A stretch of 37,346 nucleotides of DNA from Desulfonema limicola (GTDB lineage: Bacteria; Desulfobacterota; Desulfobacteria; Desulfobacterales; RPRI01). The position numbers were made by a program, and so were the translations under genes. Position 1 is the stretch's first letter. The number at the start of each line of letters is the position of its first letter. Positions 511-37,308 of the stretch are shown here, piece after piece. The notes beneath the pieces were generated by a model. The model was not told the DNA's origin, did not search any database, and saw only the letters and a program-made list of their open reading frames with translations. The DNA lies in contig DYJH01000014.1 of NCBI GenBank assembly GCA_020723255.1, positions 1 through 37,346 on the forward strand. The letters are read 5' to 3'.

Positions 511-2133
511 CTATTCCTCTGTAAGAGACTTATTTTTAGTTTTGAAAAGAAGCGCTCTTTTGTGAAGTGAATTGGTTCTGACAAAGGTCCATAATAAATC
601 TAAATCATTCCGGGAAATATCCTGCTCATTTATCAACATAGTATTGATTTTATCGCTATGGGCGGCTGCAATTTGAAGCCAGTGGCGTATCGTGTCGGGT
701 TTTGCTCCAAGAGATTTTGCTACACGTTGCACCGGCATTCCCTTGACCAATAGTTTTATTGCATTAAATACTTTTTCTTCCGAAGTCCGGAGATCATAAA
801 AGATGGTTTTTGTCCTGCTGCAAAAAGATTTGCCGCATTGTTTGCATAAAAAACGGCGGACTGGGTTACCTTTCTTTGTGCGGTAGGTTCCATTGAAAAC
901 AATATTGCCTTTTTCTATTTTACCATAAAGAATGCATTTTGGATTTGTGCAAAATTCTGTTTTTAAAATATTGTTGCGGGCATTTTCGTTATGAGTGTCT
1001 CGATTTCTTTCATCAACGATTGCAGGCAAATTATCAACGATTGCAGGCAATCTAATTTCTGATAGTGTTACCGGTGAAGGTCTTTCATCTGGATGATTGA
1101 GTTTATCAGCATCTTTATCAGTAATAGCCGGTAATTTTTTCAATCGGGATTTTCTGATCGTATTCTCTTCCAACCCTTTTTCATAAACAGGTTCAATCAA
1201 CCACCCAAATGGCCCGTCCGGTCTTAGAAGAAAATCCAATTTTGTCTCATAAATTGCCGGACATACTTCATTTTGCATATGAGCATAATCCCTTACAAAA
1301 GTCATATTTAAATTATTCTGTATAATTGATGACTCTTTTGTAACTGTATGACTAGCAAGAATATAGTTATCTTTATGTTTAATTTTTGAAAGGACTCGTA
1401 TATCGCCTGAGATCAGCCTGTAAGCTGTACTGATATTTGAGGAAAATGTAGAATATAAGAAAAAAACGCCTTCGTCCAGAGCTATAATATCGCTAATCAT
1501 TTCAGTAGTCAGATAATTTTCAAGTACGTTTTGTTTTTTGAGCACTTGATATATATCCGTTTTTATAGGCAAACAAATCCGATGAGCTACATAATGACCC
1601 CAATAATCAAAGACAATGATATTAAGGTCGGGAACTATACCTGTGGCTGCCTTGATTATATCTTTTTGTAAAGGGTTTTTTGTGCCATAAAGATCCCGGT
1701 GACATGAAAGGATCATATCTATCTGTTTTTCTGTTGAAATTGTTGCTGTCTTTATCAGCGTACAGTCTTCAGATATTTTACCGGATATGAACAACTCTTT
1801 AGAGGAAAACTGTGCGTTTTCTATCAATGAATAAGTAAAGAACCGTTTTCGCAGGGAATACCAGACAGGCTGGTCTGCATTGAGAGCAACTAATGCTTGC
1901 ATCGGGATTCCTGTTAATTCAGACACATCGTGAAGATTTTCAATTCGTGCACGCCGACGATTGGCTTCCCAGTTCTGTAATTCTCTGACACTGATTTTGA
2001 TTAATTCTGCGAATGTTTCCTGACTTATCTCCCGCCATTCCCGGTATTCCTTAATGAGAGATCCAAGTGATTTATAGAGATTGGCGTTATCGGACGAAAG
2101 CTTTTTTCGTGGTAAAGAAATCTCAGATGACAT
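511..2133 (-). CDS. Putative regulator: XRE-type HTH + unknown central domain + InsA-like zinc ribbon/HTH
   Basis: This encodes a 540-aa protein. ATG at 2133 is chosen over the track's TTG at 2172 because it has a spaced AAAGGG and matches the start of the paralog at 36687. Residues ~23-80 form a Cro/C1-type HTH (ISQETFAELIKISVRELQNWE). The central ~250 residues are not recognised, but a conserved CHRDLYGT and a GHYVAHRICLP segment are shared with the paralog. Residues ~395-433 form a zinc ribbon (C395, C400, C430, C433), followed by a second HTH (~454-490, GMPVQRVAKSLGAKPDTIRHW). The ribbon plus HTH resembles the InsA part of IS1-type transposases, but no DDE/integrase domain follows. It diverges from the operon starting at 2605, suggesting that it controls it. 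DNA-binding function is inferred; the effector is unknown. Confidence 0.7.
   Translation of the reverse strand: MSSEISLPRKKLSSDNANLYKSLGSLIKEYREWREISQETFAELIKISVRELQNWEANRRRARIENLHDVSELTGIPMQALVALNADQPVWYSLRKRFFTYSLIENAQFSSKELFISGKISEDCTLIKTATISTEKQIDMILSCHRDLYGTKNPLQKDIIKAATGIVPDLNIIVFDYWGHYVAHRICLPIKTDIYQVLKKQNVLENYLTTEMISDIIALDEGVFFLYSTFSSNISTAYRLISGDIRVLSKIKHKDNYILASHTVTKESSIIQNNLNMTFVRDYAHMQNEVCPAIYETKLDFLLRPDGPFGWLIEPVYEKGLEENTIRKSRLKKLPAITDKDADKLNHPDERPSPVTLSEIRLPAIVDNLPAIVDERNRDTHNENARNNILKTEFCTNPKCILYGKIEKGNIVFNGTYRTKKGNPVRRFLCKQCGKSFCSRTKTIFYDLRTSEEKVFNAIKLLVKGMPVQRVAKSLGAKPDTIRHWLQIAAAHSDKINTMLINEQDISRNDLDLLWTFVRTNSLHKRALLFKTKNKSLTEE
1012..1053. repeat. Two 21-nt in-frame tandem repeats in the regulator linker
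   Basis: ATCAACGATTGCAGGCAA occurs twice in succession with a 21-nt period. On the minus strand it encodes adjoining LPAIVD units between the central domain and the zinc ribbon. A more distant LPAITD lies upstream in the protein, and the paralog has LPLLVD then LPSIVD at the same place. It looks like a repeated linker motif. Confidence 0.7.
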
Positions 2134-2604
2134 AATAATTCCCTTTGAGGGCACAAGCATGATTTGTGTCAAGAAATCAGAACCAACTGAATAGATCAGC
2201 AGTAATTAATTTTTGGATCCGGGAAGCTGATTTTTACTGTGAAAATATCCTGTTGTCAATCTTATTTATTCCTGGCGCTCAAGGTAAATACGTTTGATTT
2301 TATTGACGATGGAAACACCATCTGAACCAACGATCACGATCTGCAAATTTTGGAGTATAATCATCATATCGACACATTCTGTAAAATATAGACAGGCATT
2401 TACAGACGCTGTTACAAGTACGGAACATTCCGAGCTTGATATGCTATCCGAGGCTTGGTCTGATGATCTCTTGGAGACCAACCGGAAACTTCAGAAGATC
2501 ATCAAATAAAAAGCAAATGTTGAGAAGTCGCTGATTGAGAGTGAAAAACGATTTAAAAGGGTTCTTGATAATATAATACTATATTTTCCGAAGGGAGGTT
2601 TAAA
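2134..2604. other. Divergent intergenic region between regulator and operon
   Basis: This 470-nt region lies between the divergent regulator and the HcrB gene. It must hold the promoters for both directions, but I find no convincing sigma-70 or sigma-54 promoter by eye. A GAAGGGAGGT Shine-Dalgarno sequence lies just before the ATG at 2605. Part of the region carries a decayed sensor-protein remnant (separate entry). The plus-strand ORF 2294-2509 and the minus-strand ORF 2266-2481 are not considered intact genes. Confidence 0.6.
2294..2575 (+). pseudogene. Decayed sensor fragment (coiled-coil/PAS start)
   Basis: Reading the 2294 frame through its TAA stop gives LLETNRKLQKIIK, stop, then KANVEKSLIESEKRFKRVLDNI. 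Linker-plus-PAS junctions in sensor histidine kinases typically read as E-x-N-x-x-L...ALxESExRFRxLxEN, so the stop lies in the middle of a recognisable segment. The N-terminal part has no clear family match and the PAS domain is cut off at about 2575 by the promoter and RBS of the next gene. I read it as a remnant of a two-component sensor gene rather than a functional small gene. The evidence rests on about 35 residues. Confidence 0.4.
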
Positions 2605-3585
2605 ATGCGTCTTCCGAGGTTTGAGTATCTGAGACCGTCTTCACTATATGAATGCCTGGAGCTATTGGAAGGATCAGGCCATGAGTCAAGGATTATGGCA
2701 GGCGGAACAGACTTTCTGGTCAGTCTTAAGCAGGGTGTAATTTCTCCTCAAAAGGTCATAAGCATCCGTTCTGTTCCTGAGCTTGGCTCTGTATCTGAAG
2801 ATGCGGAAGGGAATCTTCAGATTGGAGCCTGCGCAAATCTATCGGATCTTGTCAAGCACAGTCTTGTTTTAAAAAAATTACCTGCCCTTCATGATGCCAT
2901 AAGCTCCGTCGGTTCCATGCATATAAGAAATATGGCCACCATTGGAGGAAACCTCTGCCTTGCGCCGCGGTGCTGGTACTATAATCAGTCAAAGCAATGG
3001 CGTCACGCCGTAGAAGGATGCTACAGGACGGGAGGAAAAGTGTGTCATGCAATCAGCGGCTCAAAGCGATGCCATGCGATTAACAGCTCTGATACGGCGC
3101 CGATGCTGATCGCCCTTGGCGCGAGAGTATGTCTTCAAAAGAAAGATAACAAAAGATGGATTTCTCTCCGGGAATTTTTTCGGGATGACGGCAGACATCA
3201 TACGGTTCTGGAAAAGGGAGAAATGCTGACTTCTGTGATTATTCCTTGTGAAACCGGAAAGGATCGCTCAACTTTTATAAAGATACAGCACCGGAAGGGG
3301 CTCGATTTTGCGATAGGCAGTATAGGCGCATCGGTCAAGGGCAACGGCAGGAAAAAGGAAATATCGCTTATCATAAATTCCATAAGTTCCGTTCCACTGT
3401 TTCTTGCCAAGGCAGCGGAGACTGTAATGGAATCGGGATTTAATGAATCAGCCATTGGCAAGGCAGCAGAAATTGCCCGCGGGGAAACCGGAGCCGTTAC
3501 CAATCTTTTTACCTCGGCTGGTTACAAGCGGCAGATCGTTGAGGTGCTTGTAAAACGGGCCTTATCAAGCCTGAAACGGAAGTAG
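2605..3585 (+). CDS. hcrB: 4-hydroxybenzoyl-CoA reductase-type beta subunit (FAD + extra [4Fe-4S])
   Basis: This 326-aa FAD subunit belongs to the xanthine dehydrogenase/oxidase family. FAD-binding motifs are AGGTDFL (~32-38) and TIGGNL (~112-117). Between them and the rest of the domain is the insert that distinguishes 4-hydroxybenzoyl-CoA reductase from other family members. It carries CWYYNQS and Cys123, Cys139, Cys147 and Cys156, with the same spacing as the four ligands of the additional [4Fe-4S] cluster of Thauera HcrB. In that enzyme electrons flow from ferredoxin through this cluster, FAD and [2Fe-2S] to Mo to remove a phenolic hydroxyl. It is the first gene of the long plus-strand run, with a strong GGGAGG RBS. 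The 2Fe-2S and two Mo subunits follow directly. The enzyme class is well supported; the actual substrate is not known. Confidence 0.88.
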   Translation: MRLPRFEYLRPSSLYECLELLEGSGHESRIMAGGTDFLVSLKQGVISPQKVISIRSVPELGSVSEDAEGNLQIGACANLSDLVKHSLVLKKLPALHDAISSVGSMHIRNMATIGGNLCLAPRCWYYNQSKQWRHAVEGCYRTGGKVCHAISGSKRCHAINSSDTAPMLIALGARVCLQKKDNKRWISLREFFRDDGRHHTVLEKGEMLTSVIIPCETGKDRSTFIKIQHRKGLDFAIGSIGASVKGNGRKKEISLIINSISSVPLFLAKAAETVMESGFNESAIGKAAEIARGETGAVTNLFTSAGYKRQIVEVLVKRALSSLKRK

Positions 3586-3603
3586 AAAAAGGAGGAAAAG
3601 GCA

Positions 3604-4080
3604 TTGAAAAGTATCATAACGCTTAATGTAAATGGCGAGGTGCATGAAATTGCTGTGAATCCTTGGCGTACCTTAGTTGATGTACTGCGGGAGGATTTGA
3701 AACTCACGGGGACGAAACGCGCTTGCGAGCAAGGCGCCTGCGGCGTTTGCACGGTAATCATGGACGGTAAAGCCATCCTGTCGTGCCTTGCCCTGGCTGT
3801 GGACTGTGCGGGGCATTCTATTACAACCATTGAATCTTTGGGAAGTTCCGATGGATTGCATCCTTTGCAGCAGTCTTTTATTGATAACGGCGCTGTGCAA
3901 TGCGGATTTTGCACCCCCGGAGTAATAATGACCGCCAAAGCCCTGCTCGATGAAAATCCCAATCCTGACGATACCGCGATCAAGGAGGCTTTAGCCGGGA
4001 CTTATTGCAGGTGCACAGGCCATATCAAGACCGTTGAGGCAGTCAAAAAAGCCGTCCAGGCCGGCAGGGAGGTGAAATAA
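3604..4080 (+). CDS. hcrC: HcrC-like 2x[2Fe-2S] subunit
   Basis: This 158-aa small subunit of a xanthine dehydrogenase-family enzyme has the usual length. The plant-type [2Fe-2S] cluster is bound by C41, C46, C49 and C61 (CEQGACGVC), and the second, all-helical cluster by C100, C103, C135 and C137 (CGFCTPG, CRCTGH). It starts at TTG 3604, about 10 nt after AGGAGG. Its TAA overlaps the ATG of the Mo subunit by one base (TAATG), so the two are translationally coupled. It relays electrons between the FAD/[4Fe-4S] subunit and the molybdenum site. Family certainty is high; the specific Hcr assignment follows from the HcrB neighbour. Confidence 0.9.
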   Translation: MKSIITLNVNGEVHEIAVNPWRTLVDVLREDLKLTGTKRACEQGACGVCTVIMDGKAILSCLALAVDCAGHSITTIESLGSSDGLHPLQQSFIDNGAVQCGFCTPGVIMTAKALLDENPNPDDTAIKEALAGTYCRCTGHIKTVEAVKKAVQAGREVK

Positions 4081-6329
4081 TGCCGCGCAGCAGCAATGAC
4101 TATAGCGTTATAGGAAAAAGGCAGCCCAAGCTTGACGGACCGCTTAAAACCACCGGCCGGTCGCAATTTACTGATGATATAGATTTGCCGGGAATGCTTC
4201 ATGGAAAGATAGTCAGAAGCCCGGTGGCAAGAGGTAAAATTATCAGTATTGATACAACAAAGGCCGAAGGGTTAACCGGTGTAAAAGCAATCGTCACACA
4301 CGAAGACTGCCCGGGGCTTATGGTAAGCCCTGACCGTAAAATTCTGTGCAGCGACAGGGTGAATTTTATAGGCGATGAAGTTGCCGCAGTTGCAGCGGTT
4401 GATGAAGATACGGCGGCAGAAGCGGCGGAGTTGATCAGAGTAGAGTATGAACCGCTTGAAGCTGTCTTTTCCATTGAAGAGACAAGCGCCAAGGGGGCGC
4501 CGGTTATTCATGAGGGATATGAAAAAAACATCATGGATGATTACAATATTGATTTCGGAAATGTGGAGAAGGCATTTGCCGAGGCCGATCATGTGAGAGT
4601 CGGTGAATGTACTTTTAACCCGAATCACAATTGTTTTGCAGAACACCATGTGGTGATTGCTGACTATTCACTGCCCGGAAAACTAAGCATTTGGACTCCC
4701 AATCAGTCGCCTCTTTATATCCAGAAAAGCATGGGGAGCATACTGGGCATTTCGGAAAGCAATGTGAGGGTCTTTAATCTTAACACCGGAGGGGCCTTTT
4801 CCGGCCGGATAGGGCCAAGACAACACAATTTCATAGCGGCGATCCTTTCCAAAAAAGCATCCCGCCCCGTCAAGATAAGATGCGCAGCGGATGAAGAATT
4901 TGTTGTTTACCCCGGCGGCGGATATTTCAAATATATTATCAAAACAGGGGTAATGAATGATGGAACCCTTAAAGCAATGGAAGCAACCTATCTGTTTGAT
5001 TGCGGCGCTTATTGGAATTCTTCATTTAATGTTCTGCTCCGCTATAAATATCATCTGATTCCACAAAATTACCATATGGAAGCAATGCGATGGAAGGAGA
5101 AAACGGTTTATACCAACAATCCTCCGAACATGTATCCGCATGGAGCTGCTTTTCTGCAATTGAAGCTGGCACAGGAGACAGAGCTTGATATTATTGCCGA
5201 AGAAATTGGGATGGACCCGCTCGAACTCAAATTCAAGAACGCCGTTGCCAAAGGTGATACTACCCTGACAAATGTGCATTATACAAGCTGCGGTTTGAAG
5301 GAATCGATCAAAAAAGTTGCTAAAAAGTCATCGTGGAAGAAAAAGTTTAAAAAGCTGCCGCCGTTCAGAGGAATTGGCATTGGCTGCGGAGCCATGAACA
5401 GCGGTGGTCCTGATAAATCCGGAGCTTTAATAAAAATCGGGGAAGACGGGAAGATTTCTCTATTTATCGGCCTGCCCGATATGGGTCAGGGTTCCCATAC
5501 GGCAATGGCCATGATAGCAGCGGAAACTTTAGGAATCGCCGTAGAAGATGTTGAAGTAGTAGCAGGAGATACGAATGCCGCTCCATTTGACATCGGGGCA
5601 TTCGGTCAGCGGGGCACGTTTTTCACAGGGAATGCCGTAAAACTTGCCTGCCTTGACGCCAGAAAACAGCTTGCGGAAACAGCGGCAAAGAAACTTGGCG
5701 TTAAGACTTCTCTTCTGGTCTTCCGCGACGGGAAAGTATTTTACGGAGAGGAGCCGGAAAAAGCAGTACTATTTAAGGATGTAGTTTCCCAAACATTGCA
5801 TTCCGAGGATGGCAAACATATCATGGGAAAGGGGTTTTATCATACACCAACTACCTCCAGGGAGCCTTGGGTTTCAACACTTGCCTATTCCTTTGGCGCT
5901 CAGGTAGCCGAGGTTGAAGTGGATCCCGATACAGGGATCGTGACGCTGCTTAAAGTTACTCACGCCCATGATGTTGGTCGCGCCATTAACCCGCTTGCAA
6001 TCGAAGGCCAGATAGACGGTCAGGTTTTCAGCGGAATGGGCCAGATTCTGTCGGAGGAATGCGTTATGGAAAAGGGCAAGATACTCAATCCAACAATGCT
6101 TAATTACCGCCATGCCCGCTCTTTTGAAGTTCCTGAGATGGAATATATTATTGTTGAGACAAATGATCCCTATGGGCCATACGGAGCTAAAGAAGTGGGA
6201 GAAGGCCCGATTGTCTGCACTATGGCTATCTCCAATGCAGTGAACAACGCCATCGGCAATCCGGTAAGGGAATTTCCTATTACGCCGGAAAGGATTCTGC
6301 AAGCTATCAAAGCAAAAGGGAAGAAATAA
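4080..6329 (+). CDS. HcrA-like molybdopterin catalytic subunit 1
   Basis: This 749-aa large subunit of the xanthine dehydrogenase/HcrA family is full length. The N-terminal a/b-hammerhead begins VIGKRQPKLDG. Mo-cofactor binding segments include GGAFSGRIGPR, DMGQGSHTAM and AFGQRGTFFTG. The C-terminal active-site segment is GAKEVGEGP, with Glu705/Glu708 in the region of the family's catalytic glutamate. In 4-hydroxybenzoyl-CoA reductase this subunit removes the para-hydroxyl group reductively; other members hydroxylate heterocycles or aldehydes. It overlaps the 2Fe-2S gene by one base. It has a close tandem paralog downstream, so the FAD and FeS subunits may serve two alternative catalytic subunits or form a mixed complex. 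Substrate unknown. Confidence 0.88.
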   Translation: MPRSSNDYSVIGKRQPKLDGPLKTTGRSQFTDDIDLPGMLHGKIVRSPVARGKIISIDTTKAEGLTGVKAIVTHEDCPGLMVSPDRKILCSDRVNFIGDEVAAVAAVDEDTAAEAAELIRVEYEPLEAVFSIEETSAKGAPVIHEGYEKNIMDDYNIDFGNVEKAFAEADHVRVGECTFNPNHNCFAEHHVVIADYSLPGKLSIWTPNQSPLYIQKSMGSILGISESNVRVFNLNTGGAFSGRIGPRQHNFIAAILSKKASRPVKIRCAADEEFVVYPGGGYFKYIIKTGVMNDGTLKAMEATYLFDCGAYWNSSFNVLLRYKYHLIPQNYHMEAMRWKEKTVYTNNPPNMYPHGAAFLQLKLAQETELDIIAEEIGMDPLELKFKNAVAKGDTTLTNVHYTSCGLKESIKKVAKKSSWKKKFKKLPPFRGIGIGCGAMNSGGPDKSGALIKIGEDGKISLFIGLPDMGQGSHTAMAMIAAETLGIAVEDVEVVAGDTNAAPFDIGAFGQRGTFFTGNAVKLACLDARKQLAETAAKKLGVKTSLLVFRDGKVFYGEEPEKAVLFKDVVSQTLHSEDGKHIMGKGFYHTPTTSREPWVSTLAYSFGAQVAEVEVDPDTGIVTLLKVTHAHDVGRAINPLAIEGQIDGQVFSGMGQILSEECVMEKGKILNPTMLNYRHARSFEVPEMEYIIVETNDPYGPYGAKEVGEGPIVCTMAISNAVNNAIGNPVREFPITPERILQAIKAKGKK

Positions 6330-6405
6330 TAAAAGCAAAAGGATTATTTTTAACCGTAAATCCTGAGAAGCAGGCGGATGAAGCTCGCTGCATGGAGGTG
6401 AAATA

Positions 6406-8688
6406 GTGCCGGACAGAAGCAATGGCTATAGCGTTATAGGTAAAAGGCAGCCCAAGCTTGACGGACCCCTCAAAACCACAGGCCGGTCACAGTTTACCGA
6501 TGACATTGCTTTACCGGGGATGCTTTACGGCAAGATAGTCAGAAGCCCCGTGGCCCGGGGGAGGATCATAAGCATTGATACCGGCAAGGCAGAAAGGTTA
6601 GCAGGTGTTAAGGCTGTCATTACTTATCAGGACTGCCCGGGTCTTATGGTTGGCCCTGATGAGCAATTGCTTTGCCGGGAATTTGTCAATTACATAGGTG
6701 CAGAGGTGGCTGCCGTGGCAGCGGTTGATGAAGACACGGCAGCCGAAGCGGCGGAACTCATCAGCGTTGAATATGAAAAGCTGGAGGCGGTCTTTTCCCT
6801 GGAAAAGGCCCTTGCTGAGGGGGCGCCGGTAATTTGTGAGGGTCGCAAAAACAACTGCGCGGATGAGTTCGAAATCGATGTCGGCGATGTGGATAAGGCT
6901 TTTTCGGAAGCTGAACATGTGCGGGTGGACGAGTACAAGCTGAACCATAATCACAATTGTTATGCCGAGCATCACGTTGTGGTGGCCGATCATTCACTGC
7001 CGGGAAAACTGAGCGTCTGGACGCCCAATCAATCGCCGCTTTTTGTGCAGAAGGGGTTGGCCGCACTTCTTGGCTTTTCGGTGAGTGATGTACGAATCTT
7101 CAATCTTAACACCGGAGGTTCCTTTTCCAGCAGGGGCGGACCCCGTAATCACCATTATATTGCAGCGCTTCTTTCCCGAAAAGCAATGCGGCCCGTAAAA
7201 ATTTTTTGTGCGGCGGATGAGGAGTTCCTTATGCCCCGGGATAGTGGCGAGCATAAGTATACAGTGAAAATAGGGGTGATGAAAAACGGGAAACTCAAGG
7301 CCATTGAGGTAGTTTCTTTGTTTGACTGCGGCGCCCATTGGAACTCCATATTAACCGGCGTCTTTCGGGGTTTTTCCAACGTGCTGGCTATGAATTACCG
7401 ATACGATGCGATGCGGCGGCTGGGAAAGATTGTCTATACCAATAATCCCCCGAATATTGGACATCATGGCGGAGAAATTCGCCAATTGAATTTGGTAGCA
7501 GAAGCCGAGCTTGACCTGATTGCTCAGGATATCGGAATCGACCCGTTGGCGTTAAGGTATCAGAACGCATGGGAACAGGGTGATACCACCATTGCGGGTG
7601 TCCATTACGGAAGCTGCGGCCTGAAAGAATGCATGGAAAAAGCGGCTAAAAGCTCGGGCTGGAAGAAAAAGCAGGGGAAACTCCCTCCCTATAAAGGAAT
7701 TGGCATTGGCTGCGGGGGGATATTTTCCGGCGGTAAGTCCGGGATGAAGGACCACGACACCGGCAGCGCCATGGTTAGGATCGGAGAGGACGGCAAGATA
7801 TTTCTTGATATTGGATTTTCTGATATGGGCCAGGGGTCCCATACGACCATGGCCATGATTGCCGCGGAGACACTGGGAATAGCGGCAGGAGACGTCACGG
7901 TGATCGCCGGGGATACTAATTTGGTTCCTTATGATGTTACGGGAAGCAGCCAAAGGGGAACGTTTGTTGTGGGTAACGCCGTGAAGGCGGCCTGTCTTGA
8001 TGCCAGGAACCAGCTTGCGGAGGGGGCCTCAAAAAAACTTGGCGTGGCCGCTGCACAGCTCGTATTCCGTGATAGAAAGGTATTTCCTCGCAAGACACCG
8101 GCTAAGGCCATATCTTTTCAAAGCGTGGTATCCTCCCTGCTTCATTCCGATGAAGGACGGCATGTCATGGGAAGAGGCTTCTATAACTCGCCCACGAAAT
8201 CCCGGGAAATCTGGGTATCATCCCTTGCCTTTTCCTTTGGCGCTCAGATTGCCGAAGTAGAAGTGAACCCGGAAACAGGAGTCGTTAAGCTGATCAGGAT
8301 GACCGTTGCCCATGATGTGGGTCGCGTTATCAACCCATTAGGAATGGAGGGCCAGTTGGACTCGCAGGTGTTTGGAGGCATGGGGCAGCTTCTGACAGAA
8401 GAATGTATCATGGAGAAGGGGCTCATACTTAATCCCTCACCTCTCGACTACAAACTGCCCCGTCCCTTTGAAGTACCGGAAGTAGAGCGTATTTTCGTGG
8501 AATCGAATGATCCCGATGGACCCTTTGGAGCAAAAGAGGGGGGCGAGGGACCGATAGTATGCACAGTAGCTATTGCCAATGCTGTGAGCAATGCGGTCGG
8601 TTATCCGATCAAAGAATATCCTATTACCCCGGAAAGAGTTCTGCATGCTCTCAGGGAAAAGGAAAATAAGCAGGAAACTAAGGCCTGA
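6406..8688 (+). CDS. HcrA-like molybdopterin catalytic subunit 2
   Basis: This 760-aa protein is a close paralog of the preceding subunit, sharing GKRQPKLDGPLKTTGRSQFTDD near the start and most Mo-cofactor motifs (GGSFSSRGGPR, DMGQGSHTTM, GAKEGGEGP). The GTG start follows GGAGGTGAAATA. The 76-nt gap to subunit 1 ends in a copy of the GGAGGTGAAATA-type start context that precedes subunit 1, as expected for a tandem duplication. Differences are concentrated around residues 300-360 and 440-460, which flank the substrate pocket in this family, so the two may differ in substrate. An extra remnant of the same family lies at the left edge. It is probably cytoplasmic and probably assembles with the HcrB/HcrC-like subunits. 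Confidence 0.87.
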   Translation: MPDRSNGYSVIGKRQPKLDGPLKTTGRSQFTDDIALPGMLYGKIVRSPVARGRIISIDTGKAERLAGVKAVITYQDCPGLMVGPDEQLLCREFVNYIGAEVAAVAAVDEDTAAEAAELISVEYEKLEAVFSLEKALAEGAPVICEGRKNNCADEFEIDVGDVDKAFSEAEHVRVDEYKLNHNHNCYAEHHVVVADHSLPGKLSVWTPNQSPLFVQKGLAALLGFSVSDVRIFNLNTGGSFSSRGGPRNHHYIAALLSRKAMRPVKIFCAADEEFLMPRDSGEHKYTVKIGVMKNGKLKAIEVVSLFDCGAHWNSILTGVFRGFSNVLAMNYRYDAMRRLGKIVYTNNPPNIGHHGGEIRQLNLVAEAELDLIAQDIGIDPLALRYQNAWEQGDTTIAGVHYGSCGLKECMEKAAKSSGWKKKQGKLPPYKGIGIGCGGIFSGGKSGMKDHDTGSAMVRIGEDGKIFLDIGFSDMGQGSHTTMAMIAAETLGIAAGDVTVIAGDTNLVPYDVTGSSQRGTFVVGNAVKAACLDARNQLAEGASKKLGVAAAQLVFRDRKVFPRKTPAKAISFQSVVSSLLHSDEGRHVMGRGFYNSPTKSREIWVSSLAFSFGAQIAEVEVNPETGVVKLIRMTVAHDVGRVINPLGMEGQLDSQVFGGMGQLLTEECIMEKGLILNPSPLDYKLPRPFEVPEVERIFVESNDPDGPFGAKEGGEGPIVCTVAIANAVSNAVGYPIKEYPITPERVLHALREKENKQETKA

Positions 8689-35061: not shown

Positions 35062-36687
35062 CTATCCCGTTGTATACGATTTATTTTTTGCCCTGTAACG
35101 AAAAGCCCTCTGGCGAAGTGAATTTGTTTTGACGTAGCTCCATAAAGTATCCAACTCCGTCCGGGAAATATCCGGCTCATTGATCAGAATAGCATTTATT
35201 TTGTCATTTTGTAAGGCGGCGACTTCGAGCCAGTGGCGGACAGTATGGAACTTAACTCCCATGAATTTTACTATGTGCTGCAAAGGCATTCCTTTGGCTA
35301 AAAGCTTAAGCGCCTTTAGAACCTTTTCTTCCGGAGAACGTATGTCATAAAAGATAGTCCCTGTCCGGCTGCAGAAAGATTTTCCGCACTCTTTGCATAG
35401 AAACCGACGACCGGGTGTTCCTTCCTTCGTTCGGTATGTTCCATTGGAAACAACATTGCCTTTTTCTGCATTGCCAAAAAATTTGCATTTTGGGTTTGTG
35501 CATGTTTCGGTTTTTAAATTGAAGCATTGTGTATTCTCATATTGTTTATCATGCTTCATTATATCAACGATTGAAGGCAATCTGTCAACCAGTAAAGGCA
35601 ATTCATTTTCCGGTATTTTTGATTCCGGAGGGCTTTTTGTTTGATGGCAGAATTTGTCTGAGGCTTGAAAGGCAATGGCCTGCGATTGTTCCCTTTTAGT
35701 TTTATTTTTTATGTTTTTTGTCGGCGCTTTTTCCTTGTCTTGACAAAGCATCCATCCAAATGGCCCGTCAGGTCTCAATTGAAAATCCAGTTTTGTATCA
35801 TAAATTACCGGGCAAATTTCATCATCATTCGGATTGGCATAATGCCTTACATAATTCATTTGCATATTATTCTGTATGATAGCAGTTTCTTTTGTGACTG
35901 TATGGGTGGCAAACATGAATCTTTCTTTTTGTTTTATTTTTGTGAGTGATCCAATGCCATCTAAAATCAGCTTGTATAATGCGTTTACATTTGCAGCAAA
36001 TGTCGAATAATTAAAAAAAACCCCTTCGCCCTTCGATATAATATCACTGATCATATTTCTGGTCAGATAATTTTCAATTGTATTTTGTTTTATAAGTTCT
36101 TGATACACAACAAATTTTAAAGGCAAACAGATTCGATGTCCCACATAATGACCAAAATAATCAACCATTATGATATTCACTTCAGGAAGTATTCTTGTTG
36201 CTGCTATGATTATATCTTTTTGCAATGTTTTTTCGGTGCCGTAAAGATCCCGGTGACATGAAAGGATCATATCAAGGTGTTTATCTTTTTTAATGGTGAT
36301 TGTGTTAAGCAGACTATTGTCTTCAGGTTTTTCCTTTGGTTTGAATAAGTTATCAGAATAAAACTGTTCTGTTTCAATTAAAGAATAAGTAAAACGACGT
36401 TTCCTTATGTAATACCATACAGGCTGATCAGAATTAAGAGCTACCAAAGCCTGCATAGGGATTCCGGTAAATTCGGAAATGTCGTGCAGGTTCTCAATTC
36501 TGGCACGGCAACGTTTTGCTTCCCAATTTTGCAATTGCCGAACGCTGATTTTGATTGATTCTGCAAATAATTCCTGGCTTATCCTCCGCCATTGCCGATA
36601 TGCTTTGATGATAGCCCCGAGAGATTTAAAAAGTTTGACATTATCAGGCGAAACTTCATTTCGTGGTAACGAAACATCATGTGGCAT
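35062..36687 (-). CDS. Paralogous regulator: XRE-type HTH + unknown central domain + InsA-like zinc ribbon/HTH
   Basis: This 541-aa protein is co-linear with the 511-2133 regulator. It has an XRE-type HTH at ~23-80 (ISQELFAESIKISVRQLQNWE), the same central CHRDLYGT and GHYVGHRICLP segments, an LPLLVD/LPSIVD linker, a zinc ribbon (CTNPKC...CKECG) and a second HTH (GMPLQHIVKFMGVKFHTVRHW). It starts at ATG 36687 with CGGAG 7 nt upstream. Most of the N-terminal domain and the zinc ribbon are near-identical between the two, while the linker between them differs most. It diverges from a sigma-54-type promoter and a gene leaving the window, so it probably regulates that next operon, just as the left copy faces the 2605 operon. 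Regulatory role inferred from domains and position. Confidence 0.7.
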   Translation of the reverse strand: MPHDVSLPRNEVSPDNVKLFKSLGAIIKAYRQWRRISQELFAESIKISVRQLQNWEAKRCRARIENLHDISEFTGIPMQALVALNSDQPVWYYIRKRRFTYSLIETEQFYSDNLFKPKEKPEDNSLLNTITIKKDKHLDMILSCHRDLYGTEKTLQKDIIIAATRILPEVNIIMVDYFGHYVGHRICLPLKFVVYQELIKQNTIENYLTRNMISDIISKGEGVFFNYSTFAANVNALYKLILDGIGSLTKIKQKERFMFATHTVTKETAIIQNNMQMNYVRHYANPNDDEICPVIYDTKLDFQLRPDGPFGWMLCQDKEKAPTKNIKNKTKREQSQAIAFQASDKFCHQTKSPPESKIPENELPLLVDRLPSIVDIMKHDKQYENTQCFNLKTETCTNPKCKFFGNAEKGNVVSNGTYRTKEGTPGRRFLCKECGKSFCSRTGTIFYDIRSPEEKVLKALKLLAKGMPLQHIVKFMGVKFHTVRHWLEVAALQNDKINAILINEPDISRTELDTLWSYVKTNSLRQRAFRYRAKNKSYTTG

Positions 36688-37000
36688 AAAATTCTCCGAA
36701 TATTACAAAGTGCAGTTGATGCCAAGCAAACAGGAACCACAGGAACAATTGAATAAATCTAATACAATGATTTTCTCGAGCATGTGCTTTGTTTATCACA
36801 TACCAAAAGGAAAACTTCGTGTCAAGGTGAGATGCAACCGCTCAATATTTTCGGTTGGTTTTTTTTCGAAACAGCAAGAGTACAAAAAGAATTTTTAATA
36901 ATCTAATGCTTTTTGCCAATTAATCATGAATTTACATCAAATGCATTATTTGATTATTTTTTAAAATATATTACAATAATACTGTCAAATATTAACAATA

Positions 37001-37020
37001 AATTGCAACAGTTTGCAATT
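37001..37020. promoter_or_regulatory. Perfect inverted repeat AATTGCAA-CAGT-TTGCAATT (candidate operator/enhancer)
   Basis: An 8-bp perfect inverted repeat with a 4-nt spacer lies 60 nt upstream of the sigma-54-type -24 element and about 314 nt from the divergent regulator's start. The geometry suits a dimeric activator or repressor site. The neighbouring XRE/InsA-type regulator is the natural candidate ligand, but this is inference. Confidence 0.5.
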
Positions 37021-37079
37021 TGAAAGATAACAAACTTAAAGCAATTTATAATATTCTGATATTACTACACAAAATATAA

Positions 37080-37095
37080 TGGCACGATCTATGCT
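37080..37095 (+). promoter_or_regulatory. Sigma-54 (RpoN) -24/-12 promoter
   Basis: TGGCACG-ATCT-ATGCT matches the consensus TGGCACG-N4-TTGCW at all but one base, with exact GG-to-GC spacing. It points toward the gene starting at 37309, giving a predicted transcript start near 37107 and a ~200-nt leader. It needs an AAA+ enhancer-binding activator, and none is encoded in the window; the adjacent regulators lack the AAA+ GAFTGA domain. Confidence 0.65.
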
Positions 37096-37308
37096 GATAA
37101 TTTTATAAACTCATTTGGGGCATATATAACAGCAAAGCAATAAATCATAGATAAAGATAACTATAAAAAAGATAAATGAATTCTCTTTAGTGTGTCAAAT
37201 CAATGGAAAGCCTGAAAAGAGGTTAAATCTATGTAAGCTGACATTGAACATTACTTACAAGAAAGGAGGGTTCTTTGTATGGACAAAGGAGGAGGATAAG
37301 AGGGGGGT

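Follow-up and report, generated by a model that had tools for sequence, protein, structure and literature searches.

Predicted in-gene operators and apparently captured transposase DNA-binding modules in a clade-specific family of XRE regulators

What kind of regulator joins an XRE-type helix-turn-helix (HTH) to part of an insertion-sequence transposase, and which DNA might it bind? The question is raised by two genes in the stretch of DNA analyzed here (the window, 37,346 bp), which is an entire contig (G000:C168, positions 1-37346) of a 3.67-Mb draft genome that is 87% complete. The sequence-only reading of this locus had described two proteins of ~540 aa with an XRE HTH, a central domain, and an IS1-InsA-type end, and this architecture was borne out by the lengths of the open reading frames (540 and 541 aa), by Pfam HTH_3, and by NCBIfam IS1 matches. 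The features relevant to the following analysis are:

511-2133, minus strand: regulator 1, 540 aa (XRE, central domain, IS1/InsA-like module; from ORF, Pfam, and NCBIfam)
568-957, minus strand: IS1-transposase-derived C-terminus of regulator 1 with its zinc ribbon and HTH (residues 393-522)
1186-1878, minus strand: central domain of regulator 1, residues 86-316 (a low-confidence model of it shows GNAT-like topology)
1897-2055, minus strand: XRE HTH of regulator 1, residues 27-79 (Pfam HTH_3)
1972-1977, minus strand: Gln53 and Asn54 codons of regulator 1, which track operator bases 1/15 and 4/12
2095-2109, no strand assigned: predicted operator of regulator 1, CGAAAAAAGCTTTCG, in its own early codons (palindrome analysis)
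2134-2604, no strand assigned: divergent intergenic region between regulator 1 and a xanthine-dehydrogenase (XDH)-type operon
2230-2259, minus strand: promoter-like TTGACA-18-AAAAAT upstream of regulator 1 (consensus match only)
2605-8688, plus strand: first genes of the divergent operon, encoding FAD, [2Fe-2S], and two molybdopterin subunits of an XDH-family enzyme
35062-36687, minus strand: regulator 2, 541 aa, architecture as in regulator 1
35122-35457, minus strand: IS1-transposase-derived module of regulator 2, residues 411-522
35737-36432, minus strand: central domain of regulator 2
36649-36663, no strand assigned: predicted operator of regulator 2, CGAAATGAAGTTTCG (palindrome analysis)

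The two regulators are 60% identical over their full length and share the order XRE HTH, central domain of ~230 aa, and C-terminal zinc ribbon/HTH homologous to IS1 transposases. Regulator 1 has its ATG at 2133, and an alternative TTG start at 2172 is likewise open. Both proteins carry the HTH_3 domain expected of XRE members, matched by Pfam on residues 27-79 above the curated cut-off (E-values of 4e-10 and 7e-7 for regulators 1 and 2, respectively); HTH_23 was matched on residues ~451-487, and nothing was found by Pfam on residues ~86-390 of either. The NCBIfam IS1 transposase model covers residues 413-522 of regulator 1 (E = 1e-7) and 411-522 of regulator 2 (E = 2e-9); for lack of the catalytic domain, both score well under the curated cut-off of 100 bits. 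As the sequence-only reading had stated, regulator 1 faces a divergent operon, which is of the XDH type and starts at 2605 on the plus strand. The upstream side of regulator 2 is the contig end (37346), and the gene is convergent with the large operon of the window; its closest relative, L059 (4386-6002) in a sister genome, has a divergent operon 230 bp away. Between both regulators lie genes for molybdopterin oxidoreductases, an aldehyde ferredoxin oxidoreductase, FeS proteins, an SDR, and others. This region, 2605-34765, is a single long co-directional run and an unusual catabolic cluster in its own right, with four DMSO-reductase-type molybdopterin enzymes, an XDH-type enzyme with two large subunits, and an aldehyde ferredoxin oxidoreductase; DUF7065/DUF7064, EthD, and APH-like kinases are among its weakly annotated genes.

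A whole-genome search revealed that the two regulators belong to a large family. The genome that contains the window (G000) has 52 matching stretches, corresponding to about 30 near-complete family genes plus fragments, and about 15 members were among those extracted from each of the two sister species (G005 and G007). Seven of nine other genomes of the genus that were searched, one of these seven being only 63% complete, had no family members. When 291 genomes from the class and a partly overlapping set of 395 from the phylum were searched with a central-domain profile built from 60 members, nothing was found outside the three species; viral contigs gave nothing either, and a search of plasmids with the full protein matched only a C-terminal stretch in Deinococcus. 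Among the genomes searched, the family thus appears to be confined to three related, apparently uncultured anaerobic species, in which gene duplication and decay seem to drive its turnover. Literature searches found no description of an XRE-transposase-module family, and the family is previously undescribed. All of this is drawn from draft genomes of three species, by simple gene calling and sequence comparison. Separately, we noted an 861-aa member with two central regions, an apparent tandem gene fusion (L068:9578-12163), as well as frameshifted or truncated family genes (L055:1645-2656, L037:7759-8025, L052:5549-5785, and similar ones), several of which retain the palindrome near the start that is described below.

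With genes called as the longest non-overlapping ORFs, 50 of the 52 members with a resolvable upstream neighbor are divergent to an adjoining, mostly catabolic operon; the figure for the remaining genes of these loci is 58 of 405 (14%). These operons hold genes for DUF1329 and DUF1302 proteins, SDRs, old-yellow-enzyme-like proteins, aldehyde ferredoxin oxidoreductases, DMSO-reductase- and XDH-family enzymes, and URO-D-like and glycyl-radical enzymes. Three related regulators from the three species (L062, L079, and L047) have the identical gene order opposite, and likewise L035 and L061. The divergent pairing, together with the shared gene order, fits local, pathway-specific transcription regulators. 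On this genomic evidence the pairing is strongly supported, a role as local regulators is probable, and the position of the genes suggests that they control the operons they face.

The predicted binding site of these regulators was found inside their own genes. An alignment of the start regions revealed a 15-bp inverted repeat at a near-fixed place, at about codons 8-12 of most members. Of 55 members, 27 have C-G and 22 have G-C as the outer pair (1/15), with GG and CA as exceptions in three members each; at pair 4/12, A-T occurs 46 times and C-G eight times. The covariation at these two pairs was never matched in 2000 one-arm shuffles; position 3/13 is without covariation. The encoded peptide differs by class (LPRKxxS versus LQGTKxS), and the symmetry of the DNA is kept. 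The third base of the Ser/Ala codon at bases 13-15 is a synonymous position, and it follows the operator class: every one of the 22 Arg53 genes has C there, and the 33 Gln53 genes all have G or A, although TCG is the rarest Ser codon in the family genes. Since the palindrome lies in transcribed, mostly coding DNA near the start codon, it might instead form an RNA hairpin in the mRNA leader or early coding part that controls translation. We regard this as extremely improbable, as the stem would comprise at most five pairs and pairs 1-5 do not contain a single G-U in 55 copies, which favors DNA over RNA; moreover, a hairpin would not yield the perfect match to two residues of the XRE recognition helix described in the following.

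In the recognition helix (SVREL-53-54-WE), the two variable residues correspond exactly to the operator classes. Arg53 occurs with G..C and Gln53 with C..G at the operator ends (56/56 concordant), and base 15 is G (or A) with Gln53 and C with Arg53, with zero exceptions. Residue 54 corresponds in the same way to base 4, with C for Arg/Lys54 and A for Asn/Tyr54 (again 56/56). When residues 20-89 were compared with bases -7 to +22, a normalized mutual information of 1.00 was reached only by the combinations 54-4, 54-12, and 53-15. From 434-repressor structures, we take residues 53 and 54 to be equivalent to positions 32 and 33, of which position 33 would be a base contact. Correlated residue-base pairs have often turned out to be direct contacts (PMC5045206). 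The family hence displays the second feature expected of XRE members, a palindromic operator apparently read by the recognition helix, as the arms of the 15-bp palindrome covary and its classes go with residues 53 and 54.

Within each gene, some 120 bp separate operator and helix, and part of the family consists of close relatives; the coupling could accordingly be a mere consequence of linked inheritance. This explanation is very improbable in our view. On a tree built from the central domain only, with the HTH left out, at least seven (53/15) and at least four (54/4) independent switches are required; these counts were stable across bootstrap trees, and every switch was concerted. Among 1845 simulated neutral traits with similar numbers of changes, the best reached 48/56 compared to the observed 56/56, and residues 53 and 54 are unique among residues 20-89 within the same linkage block. 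Gene conversion of short tracts might, with low probability, also contribute to the coupling. Four sequences outside the fit (L055, L068, L058, and the L052 fragment) all follow the code, L055 being the informative case: it has Gln53 with CG..CG, and its relatives L083 and L084 have Arg53 with GG..CC. In two of the members with an IS630-type part (L070 and L088, see below), CGACAAAAAATGTCT has been kept in noncoding DNA, 111 and 169 bp ahead of the new start, a site that escaped an initial stricter pattern; it has C4/G12, as expected for Arg54, but T at base 15, against the code for Gln53. An operator was also looked for in the third such member, L054, and none was found. Overall, the residue-base code and the concerted switches indicate that the XRE domain very probably binds the operator within its own gene.

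As for the targets of this binding, nine of ten CGAAA-N5-TTTCG sites in G000 are at family genes or remnants, which makes autoregulation the best-supported role; the GG operator class is too degenerate for a genome-wide site count. A second copy of the palindrome was not found in most divergent intergenic regions. In the window, the stretches 2134-2604 and 36688-37308, which the sequence-only reading had singled out for DNA binding, exclude both predicted operators, which lie inside the genes. Furthermore, operator classes are widely shared within a genome (in G000, 13 paralogs are Gln53/Asn54 and nine are Arg53/Asn54), so the code alone cannot separate 30 regulators.

Most members carry an additional DNA-binding part. 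Among 60 members placed on the tree, 49 have the IS1 module, seven have no extra part, three have an N-terminal IS630 transposase domain, and one (L053) has a different C-terminus that is weakly similar to replication O-like winged helices. The zinc-ribbon cysteines 395, 400, 430, and 433 are present in all 50 module-bearing members. The sequence-only reading had noted the lack of a transposase catalytic domain, and indeed the family matches to the IS1 model NF033558 start at ~5 and end at about position 110-128 of 199, so that the DDE catalytic domain is absent. An alignment with transposases from the same order (G046 L091 and G057 L090) continues up to ELDxLW and then stops. We take this motif to be the location of the first catalytic Asp of the IS1 transposase; the module would then be cut just after it. 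These data support the view that the C-terminal module is a captured DNA-binding part of an IS1 transposase without the full catalytic domain. In L070, L054, and L088, the N-terminal ~130 residues match the IS630 model NF033545 (residues ~35-158), with E-values from 1e-14 to 2e-17. On the tree, which has no outgroup, the module labels are clustered, with five changes for the IS1 type, three for none, and one for IS630. L053 and the groups without a module sit among IS1-type members, which makes loss or replacement of the extra part likely in them. There is strong support for the proposal that bacterial transposase DNA-binding domains were recruited into pathway regulators at least twice and from different transposase families, a process that is better documented in eukaryotes (e.g. 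PMC9062482 and PMC12062965). As separate observations, the nearest transposase relatives of the module among those compared are in G057 and G046, and one contig of the same-order genome G057 (C1) has about 20 IS1-family matches, many apparently with a catalytic part.

The IS1- and IS630-derived domains, the fragments and pseudogenes, and the several contigs that end near family genes would also be compatible with cargo or accessory genes of IS1-like mobile elements that do not regulate the adjoining operons. We consider this reading quite improbable, because all IS1-model matches in G000 are family genes or fragments with no separate catalytic part, and because of the divergent pairing and the gene order that is in part conserved across species. 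Homologs mostly lying within IS elements would have spoken against the domestication of a transposon DNA-binding module proposed in the sequence-only reading; given 50 of 52 resolvable relatives divergent to an adjoining operon and an IS1 homology that is cut at ELDxLW, this proposal gains in strength.

A further possibility is that the XRE domain only autoregulates and that the operon is controlled by the transposase-derived module or, where present, the IS630-type or winged-helix part. The near-exclusive location of CG-type operators at family genes in G000 is in line with this division of labor, and so are the retention of all zinc ligands in the extra domain and its replacement elsewhere by other DNA-binding domains. 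On the other hand, seven members lack the extra domain, and those of them with a resolvable neighbor still face divergent operons. We consider this division of labor a serious alternative, though a somewhat doubtful one. A search for a binding site of the IS1 module by gapped 8-mer enrichment of intergenic regions found none and gave mainly TTGACAA, a -35-like box.

The sequence-only reading had called the central domain unrecognized, and this still holds: Pfam gave no match worth naming for 60 central domains, a PDB sequence search gave nothing significant, and the profile search of the class and phylum genomes gave matches in the three species only. A nuclease or integrase fold, which would have contradicted the regulator interpretation, was likewise absent from the Pfam and PDB sequence matches. 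An AlphaFold model of the central domain from five sequences (mean pLDDT of 48) has a GNAT-like order of elements; a full-length model (pLDDT of 38) was left unused. The longer non-HTH matches of the former in Foldseek include the GNATs 6r45, 5c88, 4e8o, 4evy, and 7q3a, with E-values of 0.016-0.05. The acyl-CoA pyrophosphate-binding motif R/Q-x-x-G-x-G/A was found in none of the 60 central domains, a profile comparison with GNAT proteins of the same genome gave no signal over controls, and a Foldseek search against viral structures named no GNAT among the best 50 matches, which were mostly HTH proteins. Based on the model, we give a GNAT-like sensor fold about even odds; a sensor role of the domain is plausible.

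In the course of this study, we also observed, upstream of several family regulators, an inverted-repeat element of ~91 bp with a long stem and a conserved loop that reads GTTTCATGTCTTGCCTGACAG in the orientation of the downstream gene. Copies are located outside the window in G000, G005, and G007, e.g. at L048:1772-1862, and are absent from three other genomes of the genus. Each of the 43 analyzed copies is located on the 5' side of a gene oriented away from it, the usual case being a DUF1329-sized gene at a distance of ~35-55 bp, and two-sided compensatory changes occur in 10 of 24 pairs. Rfam assigned no family at its cut-off, and we consider the element a candidate new leader RNA. Its interpretation as transposon ends bound by the IS1 module was rejected because all 43 copies are 5' of an outward-pointing gene, whether a regulator is near or not.

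Taken together, the results suggest the following model, to which we assign a probability of roughly 0.77 as a whole. The proteins would be pathway-specific regulators, locally placed and expanded to about 30 per genome. The N-terminal XRE domain, presumably as a dimer, would bind the 15-bp palindrome in its own first codons and control its own gene, probably by blocking transcription begun upstream. Residue 53 would set the outer base pair (Gln for C..G, Arg for G..C) and residue 54 the fourth (Asn/Tyr for A.T, Arg/Lys for C.G). The IS1-derived module probably serves as a second part that binds or bridges DNA in the divergent promoter region, and the central domain probably senses a pathway metabolite. 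By sequence comparison, the family, its divergent pairing, the predicted operator, the code, the transposase origin, and the swapping of extra domains are strongly supported, and we infer dimer binding, repression, a second site, and a ligand. A broader interpretation, on which our judgment is evenly balanced, is that of a clade-specific platform, in which an XRE-sensor core stands beside dozens of catabolic operons with an in-gene operator and an exchangeable second part derived from mobile elements, the sources being IS1 and IS630 transposases and a replication O-like protein.

Four findings go beyond the sequence-only reading: the family expansion, the predicted in-gene operator, the code that links it to the recognition helix, and the replacement of the transposase module by other DNA-binding domains. 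In importance, an operator-reader code in a large clade-specific family outweighs the domesticated transposase. How paralogous regulators gain new DNA addresses without loss of function is a long-standing question. The about 60 natural reader-operator pairs from three species, in which two residues govern at least 11 concerted switches, provide matched reader-address pairs and thereby a ready-made test of specificity change. As operator and reader are located so close together in one gene, copies would bring their operator along and could switch specificity in concert; an operator travelling inside the gene suggests a simple route for regulators to multiply.

Several known systems share individual traits with the family. 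The closest functional precedent by analogy is BzdR, an XRE protein in which an enzyme-like domain senses benzoyl-CoA (PMC3602430). Like the family, the BzdR/BoxR type (NF006015) combines an XRE HTH with an effector domain, and BzdR controls an anaerobic catabolic pathway. In contrast to the family, which is massively expanded, the effector domain of BzdR is shikimate-kinase-like, binds benzoyl-CoA, and is not accompanied by a transposase module. NF006015 matches only the HTH of the family, with 20 bits where the cut-off is 204; the central domain has no sequence relationship to that of BzdR, and no Pfam match to a shikimate-kinase-like domain was found in the 60 central domains.

The IS1 proteins InsA and InsAB' (NF033558; PMC12428005) resemble the C-terminal module, with a zinc ribbon and HTH that align along positions ~5-118 of the model. 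InsA is known as a repressor that binds inverted repeats (PMC12428005) and, as in the family module, consists of a zinc ribbon and HTH part. In the family, however, the module is fused behind an XRE and a sensor-like domain and is encoded divergently to metabolic operons, and compared to InsAB' the catalytic domain is missing after the presumed first Asp. The IS630 transposase (NF033545) shares its N-terminal domain with L070, L054, and L088, three members outside the window in which only this DNA-binding part is present, ahead of the XRE domain. Finally, mutual information between residues and operator bases has served as evidence for MerR regulators (PMC5045206) as it does here. Unlike that study, the present case concerns one clade-specific XRE family with its predicted operator inside the regulator gene and an apparently complete two-residue switch.
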